From assembly GCF_003991135.1 (NCBI RefSeq), contig NZ_CP016379.1, forward strand, positions 1,798,001 through 1,862,000: 64,000 nt of DNA, in the 5' to 3' direction. Position numbers and translations under genes: made by a program. Source of the stretch: Anoxybacter fermentans. Its GTDB lineage: Bacteria > Bacillota > Halanaerobiia > DY22613. Of this stretch, positions 527 to 29,854 are shown piece by piece; positions within the stretch are counted from its first letter, which is position 1; each line of letters starts with the position of its first letter. Below the pieces are notes generated by a model. That model made no database searches. It had not been told where the DNA came from and was given only the letters and a program-made list of their open reading frames with translations.

Positions 527-3184
527 TTATGCCTTCAACTCAGCCAATCTTTCTTCAAGAGCCTTAAGCTGAGCAGTGTACTTTTCAACTTTCTCCCGTT
601 CAGCTTCCACTAAATGTTTTGGAGCTTTGTTAACAAAACCTTCATTGCTTAACTTATTCCTGGCCCGCTCAATCTCACTTACTGTCTTTTCAATCTCCTT
701 CTCTAAACGCTCAATCTCTTTATCCAGATCAATCATATCAGCCAGAGGCAGGATAACCTCTACTCCATTTACTACAGTAGTGGAAGATTTAGCAGGCTTT
801 TCTGCAAGCTCAGCTACAATCTTTAAATCTTCAACCCGGGCCAGATCTGCTATATAATCTGCACCCTTCTTAACAATCTCCATACGGTTTTCATCCATCG
901 GATGGAGGATTGCTTTAATCTTCTTACCTGGATTAACCTTCATCTCACTCCTTATATTACGGATGGAACGGATAACATCCATTACAACTGTCATATCATT
1001 TTCAGCCTCATCACTCAACTCATCCTCATTAACTTCAGGCCAATCAACAACCATTATACTTTCACCTTCATGTGGCAGTGCTTGCCAGATCTCTTCAGTT
1101 ATAAATGGCATAAACGGATGGAGCAACCGCAAAGTCTTCTCAAGAACAGTGGTTACCACATAGAGTGCAGTCTTTTTTGCCACCGGATCTTCATCTTGAT
1201 AAAGTCTTGGTTTAATCAGCTCAATATACCAGTCACAAAACTCGCTCCAGATATAATCGTAAAGGGCAGCAGCAGCTTCTCCAAAAAGATACTTCTCCAG
1301 ATTGGAATTTACCTCAGCAATAGTCCGATTCAGACGGCTTATAATCCATCTATCTGCAAGCTCTAGTTTCAATTCATCTAAATTCAAATCACTAAAGTCT
1401 TCATCACCTAAGTTCATCAATACAAATCTAGAAGCATTCCAGATCTTATTGGCAAAATTCCGACTGGCCTCTACCTTTTCCTGACGCCAACGCATATCAT
1501 TACCCGGAGCATTACCGGTAATCAGAGTAAAGCGCAAAGTATCAGCACCAAACTTTTCAATTATCTCTAATGGGTCAACACCATTGCCCAGAGACTTACT
1601 CATCTTCCGTCCTTCAGCATCCCGGACCAGACCGTGGATAACAACTGTATGGAATGGAGTCTCACCAGTCTGAGCAATAGCGGAGAAGATCATCCGGGCA
1701 ACCCAGAAGAAAATAATATCCCGACCGGTAACCAATACATCAGTTGGGTAAAAATATTCCAGATCTTCAGTCTTATCCGGCCAGCCTAAAGTAGAGAATG
1801 GCCAGAGAGCAGAACTGAACCAGGTATCCAAAACATCTTCATCCTGTTTTAAGTTAGTAGAGTTACATTTAGTACACTGAGCAGGATCTTCACGGCTAAC
1901 AATTACCTCACCACAATCCTGGCAATACCAGACAGGAATCCGGTGACCCCACCAGAGCTGTCGGGAAATACACCAGTCACGGATATTTTCCATCCAGTTC
2001 AAATAGATTTTGGTAAACCGCTCAGGAACAAACCGGGTTTTTCCTTCCTTAACTGCCTTGATAGCAGGCTCAGCCAATGGCTTCATCTTAACAAACCACT
2101 GTTTAGAAACCAATGGTTCAATAACAGTACCACAGCGGTAGCAGTGACCTACCGAATGGGTATGATCTTCTACTTTTACCAGATAACCTAGAGCTTCCAG
2201 TTCTTTTACCAGTTCCTGCCGACATTCATAACGGTCCATACCGTAGTATTTACCAGCCTCTTCAGTCATTGTAGCATCATCATCTATAACTTTAATCTGA
2301 GGTAAGTTGTGTCGGAGTCCAATTTCAAAATCATTAGGATCATGGGCTGGAGTAACTTTTACACAACCGGTACCAAATTCTTTATCTACATGCTCATCTG
2401 CAACTACCGGAATCTCCCGTTCCATAATCGGCAGGATCAGAGTTTTACCAATAAGGTGCTTATAACGCTCATCATCTGGATGAACTGCTACAGCAGTATC
2501 ACCCAACATGGTTTCAGGACGGGTAGTAGCTACAACCACATATTCATCATCACTACCTTTTACAGGATAACGTATATGCCATAATTTACCTTCCTTCTCT
2601 TCATGTTCAACCTCTACATCAGAAAGAGTAGTCTTACATTCCGGGCACCAGTTAACAATATAATCACCTTGATAGATAAGACCCTTTTCATAAAGACGGA
2701 CAAACACTTCCCTTACAGCTCTACTACAGCCTTCATCCATAGTAAATCTTTCTCTGCTCCAGTCACAGGAAGAACCTAATTTTTTCAGCTGATTGGTAAT
2801 CCTCCCACCATACTCCTCTTTCCAGGCCCAGGCCCGTTTCAAAAACTCTTCCCGGCCAAGTTCCTCTTTGGTTACACCTTCTGTTTCTTTGATATGCTCT
2901 ACAACTTTTACTTCTGTAGCAATACTTGCATGGTCAGTACCTGGCAACCAGAGTGCACTATAACCCTGCATCCTCCGCCATCTGATTAAAATATCCTGAA
3001 GGGTATTATCTAATGCATGGCCCATATGGAGCTGACCAGTGATATTGGGGGGCGGCATCATAATAGTATAAGGCTTACGGGTATGATCTACCTCTGCTCT
3101 AAAAAAACCCTTTTCCATCCAGTATTGATACCATTTTTCTTCTACTTGAGCCGGATCATAGGTTTTACTAAGTTCTCTTACCAT
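527..3184 (-). CDS. valS: Valyl-tRNA synthetase
   Basis: The enzyme charges tRNA-Val with valine in the cytoplasm and edits mischarged threonine. At 885 residues it has the normal bacterial length. The class I signatures are intact: the HIGH motif as HMGH (53-56), preceded by PPPNITGQL, and KMSKS at 527-531. Paired cysteines (PEC around 180-183, HCYRCG near 350, CQDCG near 421 and CTKC near 437) suggest bound zinc. The last 70 or so residues are a charged coiled coil, the usual C-terminal tRNA-binding arm. The ATG at 3184 has a GGGAGG site 10 bases upstream. A T-box leader on the same strand begins about 1.1 kb upstream, with a repeat element and a broken GNAT gene between, so amino-acid-responsive control is probable but physically unusual. 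Confidence 0.98.
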
Positions 3185-3228
3185 CTTTTATCTACCTCCC
3201 AAAAAATATTTAAATCTTCAATCTAAAA

Positions 3229-3706
3229 TTACTCATCATTAATTCGCATTCTCCGCCGTTCTCTGTCTTCTTCTTCAAATCCAAATTTTTTATAATATAA
3301 AGAGAAATAGCTCTATTATTATCGGCGCGGACTTTTAAATTAATTTTGGTTATTCCAACTTTCTTTGCATATTCAATAAAAAGGTACCGATTCCTAATCC
3401 CCAGTAGTCTTTTAAAACAGAAATCTTAAAACTGGCACTATGACGTATATGCTTTCTTAAATTTCCCTGAAAACCTAAACTATCAACAATCTTTCCATCT
3501 ACCCGCGCCACGAGAAAAAGACTGGTTTCATTTTTACGTTGGGCTTCAATAAACATGGCTTTCTCTTAAATTTTCCACCACCAAAGCTCAAATTATCTGT
3601 ATCACCTGCAACCCAGTTCACATATTTTATAAAGCTCTGCTGCATCACCTACAGTGGGCTACTCAATGATGCACTTACAGCTATCTTTTAAAGTATACTC
3701 TTTCAA
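3229..3706 (-). pseudogene. Broken GNAT N-acetyltransferase gene
   Basis: A TTG at 3706 has a strong AAGGAGGG site and opens a reading frame that soon meets an in-frame TAG. Pieces of one acetyltransferase then continue in changing frames. A middle part contains the GNAT acetyl-CoA motif as DYWGLGIGTFL. A shifted part reads IEYAKKVGITKINLKVRADN. A third frame gives KKFGFEEEDRER and ends at a TAA at 3231. At least two frameshifts and one stop are needed to explain it, so it is decayed rather than an alternative start. It sits 44 bases upstream of valS, downstream of the T-box leader. It could once have been co-transcribed with valS. Confidence 0.8.
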
Positions 3707-3770
3707 AATTATCCCTCCTTTTTCAATATCACTCCCATACTAACAAAGAACAAAATGCCCTTCGGGCATT

Positions 3771-3976
3771 GCACAAAGCTAATTTTTCACTTCACAGTGA
3801 AATTTTTCGAACCATCTAAATTTCGATCTCAGTCGAAATAAGTCTCCCTAATCAAAGGGCTCTCCTGGCCCTTGATTAGCTCATCAATCCTCAAATGAAG
3901 CTTTATTTCTCCCTCAATCTCACTAAGATAGTTTAACGAAAAATTTCAATAAAGCTCAAAATTAGCTTTGTGCAGT
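3771..3976 (+). repeat. Dispersed palindromic element, copy R1
   Basis: Forward-oriented copy of the roughly 210-bp family. Its ends are GCACAAAGCTAAT and ATTAGCTTTGTGC, an exact inverted pair. Other copies have GCAAAAAGCTAAT, so both ends here carry the matching base change. Two apical hairpins are present, around the sequence GGGCTCTCCTGGCCC and the CTCATCAATCC segment. The copy separates the T-box from the GNAT remnant and valS. Confidence 0.85.
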
Positions 3977-4032
3977 TTATATTATTACAAAATATTATCC
4001 ACATCCAGCAAAAAGCAAATTTCCTGAACAAT

Positions 4033-4316
4033 AAAAAAGTTCTCTTTATCCTTTATTTTACTAAAGGACGAAAGAGAACTTATCTTCCGCGGTACCACCT
4101 TTATTCTGTGCCATATATACACTTCTCCTATAGCACAGCACTCATTTAAGATAACGGCAACACACCGGCCAGATCTACTATAAATTTCAACCTGGCAGCT
4201 CCTGAGCGACCTTCGACCAACTTCCCACAGGAGATCTTCCAGCCCATGGATCTCCCTCTCTGTAGTGTTCCATTGGTCTACTCCTCTCATTCATAGCTTT
4301 TAGGATTTATTCGATT
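4033..4316 (-). promoter_or_regulatory. T-box leader (tRNA-sensing), presumably valine-responsive
   Basis: On the minus strand the leader carries the T-box core AAAGGTGGTACCGCG (about 4086-4101) and a Stem I region with AGAGAG and GGAAG-type elements. A terminator follows in which AAGTTCTCTTT pairs with AAAGAGAACTT and leads into a run of T (4033-4080). The best specifier candidate is GTC at 4208-4210, in the context GAAGGTCGC, which would be valine; this assignment is by eye. The next intact gene downstream on the strand is valS, about 850 bases away. The T-box identity is secure. The target gene is inferred. Confidence 0.9.
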
Positions 4317-4323
4317 TTATATT

Positions 4324-4352
4324 ATGATACTATCAGATGAAATTTTTGTCAA
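4324..4352 (-). promoter_or_regulatory. Promoter of the T-box transcript
   Basis: TTGACA (4347-4352) and TATCAT (4324-4329) are separated by 17 bases, placing the start at about 4317, right where the T-box leader begins. Confidence 0.75.
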
Positions 4353-4380
4353 GTAGAGGGAATGATTTTTTAACATTTTT

Positions 4381-4418
4381 AAAAAAGGCTGTTGACCTTC
4401 TTAACTTCGTCAACAGCC
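4381..4418 (-). terminator. Terminator downstream of the NSS transporter genes
   Basis: GGCTGTTGAC pairs exactly with GTCAACAGCC, followed on the minus strand by a TTTTTT run. It lies after repeat R2 and before the T-box promoter, so it insulates the two units. Confidence 0.85.
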
Positions 4419-4447
4419 TCAGAAAACCCAAAATAATTTATGATTTT

Positions 4448-4656
4448 ACTGCAAAAAGCTAATTTTTCGCTTCATAAAGAAATTTTTCGAACCATCTAAA
4501 GTTCGATTTCAGTCGAAATAAGACACACTAATCAATGGGTTCTTATGACCCTTGAGTAGCTCATCAATCCTCAGATGAGGCCTTATTTCTCCCTCAATCT
4601 CACTAAGATGGTCTAACGAAAAATTTCTATGATGCTCAAAATTAACTTTTTGCAGT
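4448..4656 (+). repeat. Dispersed palindromic element, copy R2
   Basis: Forward copy with ends ACTGCAAAAAGCTAATTTTT and AAAATTAACTTTTTGCAGT. Both arms are full length. The apical hairpins are partly eroded (ATGGGTTCTTATGACCCTTG). It lies directly after the small transporter subunit gene. Confidence 0.85.
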
Positions 4657-4664
4657 TTAATTAT

Positions 4665-4763
4665 TTATTTGCGCTTACTCATCGCCTTATATAAACAAAA
4701 TGCCAGACCGCCATACAGAACACTACAGCCAAAGATTAACATCGCAATTGCACCCGGATTCAT
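4665..4763 (-). CDS. metS: MetS-type small subunit of an NSS amino-acid transporter
   Basis: This 32-residue protein starts MNPGAIAMLIFG and has a single membrane span (about residues 4-26), ending in KAMSKRK. Its ATG follows the stop codon of the large transporter with no gap (TAAATG), and its ribosome site AGGAGGTG lies inside the end of that gene. Small hydrophobic partners of this kind accompany bacterial neurotransmitter:sodium symporters such as MetP/MetS, which carry methionine and alanine. Assignment rests on size, sequence pattern and location. It is too short for confident homology by eye, but translational coupling is clear. Confidence 0.8.
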   Translation of the reverse strand: MNPGAIAMLIFGCSVLYGGLAFCLYKAMSKRK

Positions 4764-6266
4764 TTACTTCACCTCCTGATTTAAGAGGCGTTCATTGGCC
4801 CAGTTCATCTTTGCAAACCATACAGCCAGAATTATCAGCACTACAGCTGCAATCCAACCCATGCTTAAAGCAGAAATTGGATAACCGCCATATGGCTTAA
4901 TAAACTCATCGATTGCCGATTTAATAACTGAAAATCCTAAAGTAAGTGGAATGAAGTACTGAACCAATACATCCCACCACTTACCAATACTAAAATCAGA
5001 AATAGGATTCATCCACTCCCGCAAACGGCTAGCTTTAAAAATCCAGGCAATAACGAGACATTCTACTACTCCCACAAGGGCTGCTCCAAATTGCATATTG
5101 AAATGATCAATGATATCCAAAAAGTAGAGTCCTGCACCTGTAGTATAAATAACACTGCCCAAAAAACCGATTCCACATACCAGAATAACCGCTTTATTTC
5201 GTTCTATATTAAACTTATCCATCAAATTGGCCACTACTGCTTCTACTAAAGATATACTGGAAGAAAGACCTGCAATAAATAATGCCAAAAAGAAGATTAA
5301 GCTAAATAGAGTCTGAAAAGCTGGAAGCATACTGATAGCCTTAGGGAAAGCCACAAATGCCAGACCAATACTCTGGGTAATTACCTCATCAACTGGAACT
5401 CCTGTCTGATGGGCCATATAACCCAGGACACCAAATACTCCCATACCAACCATAAAACTAAAACCACAATTACCTAAACCGGTAATAAAAGCATTATTAA
5501 CAACATCAGATTTTTTAGGCAAATAACTGGCATAGGTGATCATAACTCCAAAGCCCAGACTCAAAGTAAAGAAAATCTGACCAAAAGCAGCAAGCCAGAC
5601 TTTACTATCTGTCAGGCGGGAAAAATCCGGAGTTAGATATTTATTTATACCTGCCATTGCACCAGGCAAAGTCAAACCCCTTAAAGTTATAATTGCCATC
5701 AAAATGAACAGTAAAGGCATAAAAATTTTACTTGCTTTCTCTACACCATCCTGAACACCTTTATAAATAATTATAAAGTTAGCTGCCCATACTAAAAATA
5801 CAGTAATTAAAATATTAATTTGAATATTACCAATCTCCCAGACCCCTGAGGTTAAACCCAAATGATTATTAAAAAAGAATGTTTCCGGGTCATTACCCCA
5901 ACTCTGGAAGAAAGAGTATCCAACATAATTAAGTGTCCACCCGATAATAACGGTATAATAAGTCATCAACAAAAATGAAATAATGGGAGCCCACCAACCT
6001 AACCACTCCCACTTACGGTCAAGACGTGCAAAAGATAAAGCTGCAGAACCTCTCTGTCTTAATCCAAAGCCAATCTCTAAAATTAACATTGGAATTCCTA
6101 CTGTCAGTAATACAACAAAATAGGGAATGAGAAATGCTCCTCCACCATTTTCATATGCTATATAACTAAAACGCCAGATATTACCCAATCCTACTGCTGA
6201 ACCAATTGCAGCCATAATAAATCCCAGGCGTGACTCAAATGCTCCCTTCTTATCTTCCATTATCAA
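4764..6266 (-). CDS. Sodium-dependent amino-acid transporter, NSS family
   Basis: A 500-residue inner-membrane protein with about 12 hydrophobic spans. The N-terminus after MEDKKGAFESRLGF is the NSS signature, AAIGSAVGLGNIWRF, the broken first helix that binds sodium and substrate. It continues YENGGGAFLIPYF. Members of this family import amino acids with sodium. The coupled MetS-like gene points to a MetP-type carrier for methionine, alanine or similar substrates, but the substrate is inferred. ATG at 6266 has GGAGGAG just upstream. A promoter is visible at 6421-6448, giving an untranslated leader of about 150 bases that may fold (ACTG...CAGT enclosing ACCA...TGGT). I recognise no known riboswitch in it. 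Confidence 0.93.
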   Translation of the reverse strand: MIMEDKKGAFESRLGFIMAAIGSAVGLGNIWRFSYIAYENGGGAFLIPYFVVLLTVGIPMLILEIGFGLRQRGSAALSFARLDRKWEWLGWWAPIISFLLMTYYTVIIGWTLNYVGYSFFQSWGNDPETFFFNNHLGLTSGVWEIGNIQINILITVFLVWAANFIIIYKGVQDGVEKASKIFMPLLFILMAIITLRGLTLPGAMAGINKYLTPDFSRLTDSKVWLAAFGQIFFTLSLGFGVMITYASYLPKKSDVVNNAFITGLGNCGFSFMVGMGVFGVLGYMAHQTGVPVDEVITQSIGLAFVAFPKAISMLPAFQTLFSLIFFLALFIAGLSSSISLVEAVVANLMDKFNIERNKAVILVCGIGFLGSVIYTTGAGLYFLDIIDHFNMQFGAALVGVVECLVIAWIFKASRLREWMNPISDFSIGKWWDVLVQYFIPLTLGFSVIKSAIDEFIKPYGGYPISALSMGWIAAVVLIILAVWFAKMNWANERLLNQEVK

Positions 6267-24180: not shown

Positions 24181-24714
24181 TTATTCTTTTAAATAACGGT
24201 CAAAATACTCATCTTTAAAAATGGCCATCACATATTGATCAACATAGCGTCCATCTTTAAATATAGACCGTCTCAACTGGCCCTCTTTTCGAAAACCGAC
24301 CTTTTCAAAAGAATTAATATACTCCTCATTATCCTGATCAACCTTTACTGCTATCCGCCGGAGATTCAACAATTTAAAGCAGTAATCCAAAAATAGAACT
24401 ACTGCCTCTATTTCAAACCCTTGACCCCGATACTCTTTTTCACCAATAATGATCTCCAATTTAGCATTTTGACTCTGAACATTAATACTACTAATCCCTA
24501 CTGTCCCGAAAGGTTTATCATTAGAGCCATCACATATTAAAAACACCTTTTTATTGGAATTTACTAATTCTTCATACCATTCTTCTAATTTTGGAAATGG
24601 AGTTGGATCCGGTAGTCCGGGGTATATAAATTCAGAATCATTTCTCCATTTATGTATAATTGGCAAGTCTTCTAACTCTATTGGACGTAAAAATACTTTT
24701 TCGCCATATAACAT
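24181..24714 (-). CDS. GNAT acetyltransferase, RimJ/RimL-like (177 aa)
   Basis: Starts MLYGEKVFLRPIELEDLP, the typical RimJ/RimL N-terminus, and has the acetyl-CoA loop in GEKEYRGQGFEIEAV followed by NLRRIAVKVDQDNEEYI. RimL relatives acetylate the N-terminus of ribosomal proteins or small amines. Its ATG directly follows the stop of the preceding GNAT gene (TAAATG), with the ribosome site GGAGGAGGG inside that gene. The canonical Q/R-X-X-G-X-G/A loop is weakened (RGQGFE), so activity is likely but not certain. Confidence 0.88.
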   Translation of the reverse strand: MLYGEKVFLRPIELEDLPIIHKWRNDSEFIYPGLPDPTPFPKLEEWYEELVNSNKKVFLICDGSNDKPFGTVGISSINVQSQNAKLEIIIGEKEYRGQGFEIEAVVLFLDYCFKLLNLRRIAVKVDQDNEEYINSFEKVGFRKEGQLRRSIFKDGRYVDQYVMAIFKDEYFDRYLKE

Positions 24715-25584
24715 TTAAATCCCTCCTCCATTAAATATCAAAATATATTCTGACCCAGTCTCTTCCTTTTTAAAACCAAACTTTTCATAAAGACCCCTTG
24801 CCTGAAAATTTTCTTTGACAACAGATAGAAATATGGAACTTACATTTTGTCTTTTAAACCAGTTTATTGCATGTTTCATAAGCTGTTTACCTATTCCTAA
24901 TCTCTGGTAATCTACATGAACCCCAATACGCACCAGATGTCCTTCATCATCTATAAGGCGATTATAGTTATAACCAATCACCTGATCCATCATCTCAGCA
25001 ACAACAAAGTTTCCCCGTTCATTCTCAGCCATATTCCGGAAAATAGTTGGACTATTCCAGAATTCGGGCATAAAGATACCAGACTCAAGAGCAAGTAATT
25101 GATCCACATCTTCTTCACGAAATGACCTTATTTTCACCGGCAATCCCTTAAAATCTGGAATAGCAAAATCTCTTTTACGGTATTTGAGTAATTCTGCATA
25201 AATTTCAAACCCGGTTTTAAGAGCAGTATTAACAATTAAATCTGACTCAGTTAAATAGAAGAGAGATCTTTTTTCTTTATCTCTGAAACTATTAGAAAAT
25301 ATAGCCATAAATTGTTTAAAATAGTAAGAAAAATCATCGGAATCCATTTCCGGTGTAGAAATAATTGCACCAATTCTAAGTGCTCCTTCGCGCCAGGGCC
25401 TTATCCAACATCCCATCTGAAGTGAGTCATCTTTTTCAATAAAATATAACCCCTCTGGACAATCATTTGAATATTTTAAATCCTCTTTTAGCAAATCTAC
25501 AGGTATATTTACATTTGCTTTACAGCAAAGCTCCAAAATCCGGTTTAAATCTTCTGAATGGCCTTTCCAGACTCTAATCTCCAT
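24715..25584 (-). CDS. GNAT acetyltransferase with degenerate N-terminal GNAT-like half (289 aa)
   Basis: The C-terminal half (about 145-285, beginning VKIRSFREEDVDQLLALE) is an intact GNAT domain with acetyl-CoA motif VDYQRLGIGKQLMKHAINW and SVVKENFQARGLYEKFGF. The N-terminal half has the same size and fold pattern but no intact motif, as in tandem-GNAT proteins. The ATG overlaps the previous stop as TGATG; a GTG one codon earlier is also possible. It is the middle gene of three consecutive acetyltransferase genes. Substrate unknown. Confidence 0.88.
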   Translation of the reverse strand: MEIRVWKGHSEDLNRILELCCKANVNIPVDLLKEDLKYSNDCPEGLYFIEKDDSLQMGCWIRPWREGALRIGAIISTPEMDSDDFSYYFKQFMAIFSNSFRDKEKRSLFYLTESDLIVNTALKTGFEIYAELLKYRKRDFAIPDFKGLPVKIRSFREEDVDQLLALESGIFMPEFWNSPTIFRNMAENERGNFVVAEMMDQVIGYNYNRLIDDEGHLVRIGVHVDYQRLGIGKQLMKHAINWFKRQNVSSIFLSVVKENFQARGLYEKFGFKKEETGSEYILIFNGGGI

Positions 25585-26138
25585 CACTCTCCTCTTATAT
25601 ATTTCTCATAAATGGGCATAAACTCTTCTACCAATACTCCCATCACTATATTATCAACATATTCACCATTAATATAATTAGCATTCTTTTCTACCACTTC
25701 CACTATAAACCCACATTTTTCATAACAGCGTATAGCACGTCTATTAAAAGCAAAAACCTGAAGTTGAATACGCTGGAAATTTAGTTGTGTAAAACCATAA
25801 TGGCACATTGACATCAAAGCATCAGTACCATAACCCTTACCCCAATACTCTTTACCCAAAAAGAGCCCAACTGTAGCTTTCCTGTCTTTCCAACTAACCT
25901 CATTAAAACCAATATGACCCATATGTTCACCTGTCTTTAAGTTTTCAATAACTAAAGAAGTAAAATGATAATCTCCTTTTAAATATCCTCTATACCAATT
26001 CTCCTCAGTTTTTAAACTAATCCCAAAATATTTAGCACCTAAAGGAATGGAAACCTCTGGATCATTAAGAAAACCTGTAGTCTTTGGTAGATCTTCTCTC
26101 TCTACAGGCCGCAATTTAACCAATTTTCCATAAATCAT
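25584..26138 (-). CDS. GNAT acetyltransferase, RimJ/RimL-like (184 aa)
   Basis: Begins MIYGKLVKLRPVEREDLP, closely resembling the 177-residue paralogue two genes downstream. The acetyl-CoA loop is intact in LGKEYWGKGYGTDALMSM, followed by NFQRIQLQVFAFNRRAI. It is the first gene of the GNAT-GNAT-GNAT-methyltransferase unit, with an AGGAGGG site. The family acetylates protein N-termini, polyamines or antibiotics; the target is not determined. Confidence 0.9.
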   Translation of the reverse strand: MIYGKLVKLRPVEREDLPKTTGFLNDPEVSIPLGAKYFGISLKTEENWYRGYLKGDYHFTSLVIENLKTGEHMGHIGFNEVSWKDRKATVGLFLGKEYWGKGYGTDALMSMCHYGFTQLNFQRIQLQVFAFNRRAIRCYEKCGFIVEVVEKNANYINGEYVDNIVMGVLVEEFMPIYEKYIRGE

Positions 26139-29711: not shown

Positions 29712-29854
29712 TTAATCATATTGTTATATACAACCTGCGAAACATATAATTTCTAAACATGAACAAAATGCTCTTCGGGTACTTTATTGTACTTAGTAAT
29801 CTTTCTGACTACAGTCTTTCTTTTTACTGCAAAAAGTATAATTTTCTAAACACT

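Follow-up and report, generated by a model that had tools for sequence, protein, structure and literature searches.

A valine T-box leader separated from valS by a terminator-associated repeat and a decayed acetyltransferase gene

The valS leader compared with described T-box systems

T-box operons in which the ligase is not the first gene are known, and examples are listed in the figure key of PMC2494555. The leader analyzed in this study lies in the window, a stretch of 64,000 nucleotides of Anoxybacter fermentans DNA. It is like the T-box (RF00230) of the valyl-tRNA synthetase type in its full model match, its GUC specifier, its antiterminator and terminator, and its position before valS. 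Unlike the usual valyl T-box, its core is 904 nt from the valS match, compared with 73 to 132 nt in 23 relatives, and a repeat and a dead gene intervene. This arrangement is not described in the titles and abstract openings that we covered on T-boxes with repeats, MITEs at terminators, operons of GNAT and synthetase genes, group IIC introns, or insertions at terminators.

On the minus strand, the order is promoter, T-box, terminator, repeat, dead GNAT acetyltransferase gene, and valS (Table 1), with 877 nt between the end of the T-box match and valS. The T-box scores 144.6 bits against a gathering threshold of 93 (Rfam). At the place in the model alignment that we take to be that of the specifier, GUC (Val) was read by eye; the same triplet is present in G001, the sister genome from another genus of the same family, and, given that place, it fits valine synthetase as the controlled gene. 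The antiterminator, containing GGTGGTACCGCGG and taken from the model alignment, overlaps an intrinsic terminator, whose folded form persists with the repeat alongside when T-box and repeat are folded together. The promoter is the sole minus-strand site of its scan in 3100-4800, a scan that returned 2 sites on both strands, compared with 4.7 expected by chance. The earlier note had placed a promoter, a full T-box, and a terminator well upstream of valS, with a repeat, termed R1, and a GNAT pseudogene with a former ribosome site in between, and all of these features are present as it described them.

Table 1. Features of the valS locus in window coordinates
Feature	Position	Strand	Basis and remarks
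valS, valyl-tRNA synthetase	527-3184	-	intact, 885 aa; 86% identical to G001
GNAT acetyltransferase pseudogene	~3706-3238	-	aligns to the intact G001 protein in three frames; interrupted by in-frame stops
Former GNAT ribosome-binding site AGGAGGG	3719-3713	-	read from sequence; 6 nt before TTG at 3706-3704
Composite repeat (E2+R1) starting right after the T-box terminator	3747-4029	-	right end exact E2 match; left end by alignment
Hairpin AATGCCCGAAGGGCATT then TTGTTCTTTG, terminator-like E2 right end toward valS	3754-3770	-	-8.2 kcal/mol, T score 3.3
R1 core (copy a), a long and nearly perfect palindrome	3770-3979	-	repeat comparison and folding
T-box intrinsic terminator, stem 4080-4038 and T-run	4030-4080	-	sequence and folding; stem -20.8 kcal/mol, T score 4.6
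T-box leader (RF00230), T-box motif GGTGGTACCGCGG	4303-4061	-	Rfam covariance-model alignment
Sigma-A-like promoter TTGACA-17-TATCAT	4352-4324	-	scan, 11/12 consensus positions
R1 copy b, a MITE inserted separately, upstream of the promoter of the T-box	4442-4662	.	ATTTAT on both flanks

The remains of the acetyltransferase gene include a 68-aa open reading frame at 3350-3556 that matches PF13508/PF00583, and a single match to the G001 protein takes in one TGA, one TAG, and two TAA codons without keeping the reading frame. In G001, a T-box (109.1 bits) is followed after 67 nt by an intact 182-aa GNAT gene (P0001; L002:4190-4738, minus strand) and then by valS, with no repeat at that place. The end of an SNF-type transporter gene upstream looks similar by eye in the two genomes. 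Aligned with the G001 DNA, the GNAT remains are 62.0% identical over 463 aligned positions with 92 gap columns, the T-box is 75.5% identical over 237 positions with 11 gap columns, and the promoter is identical at 25 of 29 positions; by this sequence comparison, conservation is higher in promoter and T-box than in the GNAT remains.

The intact order in G001 argues that the GNAT gene was part of a valine-controlled operon and decayed in the lineage of the genome studied here, as one suggestion of the earlier note had it. Its other suggestion, insertion followed by decay, holds for the repeat as an insertion and fails for the GNAT gene, whose intact orthologue in the same place in G001 rules out a late arrival in this lineage. 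We regard it as almost certain, judging from the two sequences, that this history ran from a T-box/GNAT/valS operon through decay of GNAT and insertion of the repeat, both within this lineage. The G001 operon and the known T-box operons with a non-first ligase are alike in that the ligase gene is not first; the present locus differs from them in that its leading gene has died, turning the operon into a long leader. It clearly illustrates how a T-box operon can lose its leading gene with the T-box itself remaining conserved.

Repeats behind the T-box terminator

R1 is a MITE, with inverted repeats, target duplications, many copies, and no coding sequence. Its two copies at this locus are in direct orientation on either side of the T-box and are 88% identical (3770-3979 versus 4450-4659); no counterpart of copy b was seen at the corresponding place in G001. 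Copy a has terminal inverted repeats with 17-nt perfect arms and no open reading frame of 50 aa, and a 236-nt stretch containing it folds into one long stem (-93.7 kcal/mol, z -10.3) that persists when T-box and repeat are folded together. The R1 end pattern has 1,015 matches in the genome, counting both strands (reversed control, 0), from which, at about two places per element, we estimate some 500 copies. Among 67 two-ended elements, which do not include copy a because its outer right end is missing, exact flanking duplications of 6 nt were found in 12 (0.49 in shuffles) and of 7 nt in 5 (0.13); the other 50 have neither, and copy b has one. R1-related sequence was found in 5 of the 58 other genomes of the class, G001 not among them, with up to 12 candidates scored per genome. 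Terminal inverted repeats, duplications of 6 to 7 bp, and high copy number are shared with bacterial MITEs (PMC10969869, PMC5896051), but, unlike those, some R1 copies lie inside another repeat, behind terminators. Outside the window, at 1945-1985 kb of contig C1 of this genome (L075 and L076), fifteen R1 copies, many of them about 2.1 kb apart, lie between repeated open reading frames with an RHS-like core, GIGLYYYGARYYDP; the cluster looks like an array of displaced tail cassettes of the RHS type, a name given by eye.

The larger repeat in which the R1 core, like many further R1 copies, is nested, here called E2, had been missed in the earlier reading. With as many as 3 mismatches allowed, the genome has 35 matches to its right end, GCCCGAAGGGCATTTTGTTCT, and 45 to its left end, GTTTAGGAAATTATACTTTTT, and none to the reversed controls; R1 may lie within it in either orientation or be missing. 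The left end at valS is diverged; in alignments of its 50 nt with four further E2 copies, scores range from 24 to 33, compared with 19.5 or less in 500 shuffles per reference. The valS copy starts right behind the T-run of the T-box terminator, at a place where G001 has no E2. Such a position is the rule, since a T-run (5 or more T in 7 nt, inside the preceding 14 nt) precedes 42 of the 43 left ends tested, out of the 45, the one at valS not being among these 43; the frequency is 17 to 20% at positions drawn at random from the window and the fetched loci. The mean fold of the 40 nt that precede the left ends is -13.2 kcal/mol, versus -4.0 kcal/mol for the comparison. T-runs and strong folds together place E2 behind intrinsic terminators. 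An E2 can also begin at the end of another, as seen by eye in L050, L187, and L216 and at window position 29760; in the latter case, a short E2 without R1 (29760-29851, minus strand) stands behind a T-run, and a further E2-like left end comes immediately after it.

Group IIC introns insert at terminators, and their sequence starts with GUGYG. E2 is like them in its location just 3' of intrinsic terminators but unlike them in that it has no match to an Rfam intron RNA, its copies are about 60 to 310 bp long, and they start with GTTTAGG. No intron family matched the E2 copy in the window (E up to 1), and none reached gathering among 20 E2-bearing loci. Searches of this repeat against known RNA families and plasmid and phage sequences gave no match, the sole hit being a subthreshold one to "uup" (E 0.17) over the E2 hairpin. 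As for a parent element, no convincing E2 ends were found alongside the three Y1 transposase matches or the two reverse transcriptase matches in the genome; beside one Y1 transposase, the idea of an IS200/IS605 relative met only E2-end matches with 4 to 6 substitutions, and one reverse transcriptase remnant lies 1.4 kb from an already listed left end. The locus is mostly a case of ordinary decay, joined by an unusual terminator-associated repeat.

Among 20 further E2-bearing loci, no other riboswitch leader before E2 reached gathering, and two of these loci hold rRNA or tRNA genes. In one other E2 copy, the ATG of a gene follows 19 nt after the repeat, whose right-end hairpin is mismatched there (ACCCGAAGGGC); E2 therefore need not silence the gene behind it, and in that copy it might hold a promoter. 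Several E2 left arms (for example, in L046, L047, L048, and L051) contain TGTGGATAA, the complement of TTATCCACA, which we take to be DnaA-box-like.

Control of valS through a long leader

The insertion at valS has parallels within the genome. Fourteen T-box matches were found, 11 of them above gathering, and because one is the second half of a double T-box they amount to 13 leaders. In five of these, the space separating T-box and gene contains R1 and/or E2, namely at valS, asnS, metS, a transporter gene with a leucine T-box, and ileS (names other than valS were read by eye), with gaps of 877, 443, 259, 329, and about 147 nt, respectively, the ileS start being placed by eye. The ileS case, an E2 without R1, is a weak call, with scores of 19.0 and 19.5 against shuffle maxima of 17.5 and 16.5. 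The eight leaders without a repeat have gaps of 52 to 84 nt. The double T-box of asnS is present in both genomes (L036 and L044 here; L243 and L262 in G001), and here an E2 with R1 separates the two halves, which are 28 nt apart in G001. Repeats as the sole cause of long gaps were ruled out by G001, where metS has a gap of 476 nt and asnS one of 293 nt, the latter containing the second half of its double T-box, both without the R1 pattern. What began as a single odd spacing becomes a pattern: repeats can lengthen control leaders, and a repeat family that sits behind terminators can land in leaders of the riboswitch type, whose terminator regulates a gene rather than ending one.

We propose the following model. 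The ancestral operon consisted of a promoter, a valine T-box, GNAT, and valS. GNAT decayed by stops and frameshifts, and an E2 carrying the R1 MITE inserted directly behind the T-box terminator, changes that the comparison with G001 shows and for which the model implies no order in time. When uncharged tRNA-Val binds the T-box, RNA polymerase would pass the terminator, the repeat, and the dead gene and reach valS, which would have an untranslated leader some 1.1 kb long and still respond to valine. Such persisting control through the long leader is probable on the sequence evidence, as promoter and T-box are better conserved than GNAT and no substitute promoter rises above chance. In 3185-4060, the best site falls below the shuffle mean, and 97.5% of 200 block shuffles did equally well or better; our promoter scans cover sigma-A-like sites, and among these the strong promoter directly upstream of valS that, in the earlier note, would have spoken against its reading was not seen. 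The four other T-box genes with a repeat in the same gap, ileS weakly, also count for retained control. The description of the T-box as cut off from valS is therefore not upheld, and the case makes it testable through how long a leader a T-box can work.

The main doubt about retained control is the E2 hairpin that faces valS. With its U-rich tail and its exact match to the consensus, it may stop part or all of the read-through, and in two further copies compensating changes preserve the pairing of its stem (GCCTGAAAGGC). With the same flanks, the hairpin folds at -8.8 kcal/mol at valS, compared with -3.0 at asnS and -3.9 at ileS, as if strong ones were not tolerated before an active gene; being the strongest of the three, the valS hairpin weighs against retained control and toward an alternative in which E2 brought its own terminator, the T-box yields only a short RNA, and valS is transcribed from another promoter. 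If the arrival of E2 is recent, moreover, an intact T-box is no proof of persisting control. We nevertheless judge this alternative unlikely, since the hairpin is weak next to the T-box terminator (-8.2 versus -20.8 kcal/mol; T score, 3.3 versus 4.6) and the alternative calls for a promoter where no site exceeds chance.

In a more general hypothesis, tentative and rather doubtful, E2 is a mobile element that recognizes intrinsic terminators and carries a weak terminator of its own at the far end. It would then add a second attenuation step or a processing hairpin to the amino acid-controlled leaders of valS, asnS, and perhaps ileS and so retune them. T-box attenuators, being terminators before genes, would be natural landing sites for such an element.

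Retained control also admits a refinement, in which the T-box still decides but RNase III cuts the long R1 hairpin, so that the valS mRNA would start inside the repeat. RNase III prefers long stems, and the R1 RNA is predicted to form one, with its fold kept in the context of T-box and E2; we consider such cleavage improbable.

The slot between T-box and valS in relatives

valS was found in 41 of 41 genomes, and 30 loci, that of the window's genome (G000) and those of 29 relatives, were examined over 1.5 kb upstream (less at two contig ends). G001 is the only member of the same family among the 29. All 30 have a T-box core before valS; in each of the 29 fetched relatives, the T-box is above gathering (Rfam), and the one in the window outscores them all. 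In the comparison of leader distances that the earlier note had called for, core and valS match are close, at the distances given above, in 23 of the 30, the remaining seven measuring 201, 275, 276, 373, 683 (G001), 904 (this locus), and 933 nt (G029).

Of the 28 relatives that remain when G001 is set aside, 23 leave no room for a gene in the gap, four gaps of 201 to 373 nt contain no GNAT frame, and in G029 the GNAT belongs to another family, so this GNAT must have arrived at some point in the family of G000 and G001. A history in which it came from outside, had a promoter of its own, and was never part of the valine transcript is nevertheless highly improbable, because the sister genus has an intact copy at the corresponding position, immediately after the T-box terminator, and the scan of the window shows no promoter-like site above chance before it. 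The G029 gene (L023, about 622-1219) is an intact RimJ/RimL-like GNAT with a weak NCBIfam match to IleRS with a GNAT domain, and this second, independent GNAT between T-box and valS shows that genes enter this slot now and then.

In a wider survey of the named collection, in which at least 594 stretches matched, 39 of the 80 valS loci among the matches listed are preceded by a T-box core, at 54 to 192 nt in 34 cases and at 282 to 2307 nt in five. In the other 41 of these 80, some of which lack enough upstream sequence, a core with at most one substitution was not found. The nearest named valS among the matches listed is that of Halanaerobium saccharolyticum (66%), a ranking from which records of the source genome itself may be left out. 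In Thermovorax subterraneus (L108), about 2.3 kb with open reading frames that look transposase-like by eye lies between T-box core and valS.

A general partnership of this GNAT with valS found no support. In a search of 59 genomes of the class with the G001 protein (E up to 1e-10), with contigs compared with those of the valS search, 14 genomes matched, and the gene is beside valS only in G000 and G001. Ten others carry it on contigs other than that of valS, a comparison between drafts that is weak where valS is split, as in G028; G041 and G052, which also matched, are absent from the valS search. A close intact GNAT copy that might serve as a replacement was not found elsewhere in the genome of the window, where the next best match reaches 38.9 bits and 34% identity over 112 aa. 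Three further GNAT-like matches are clustered at 24214-25958 on the minus strand of the window.
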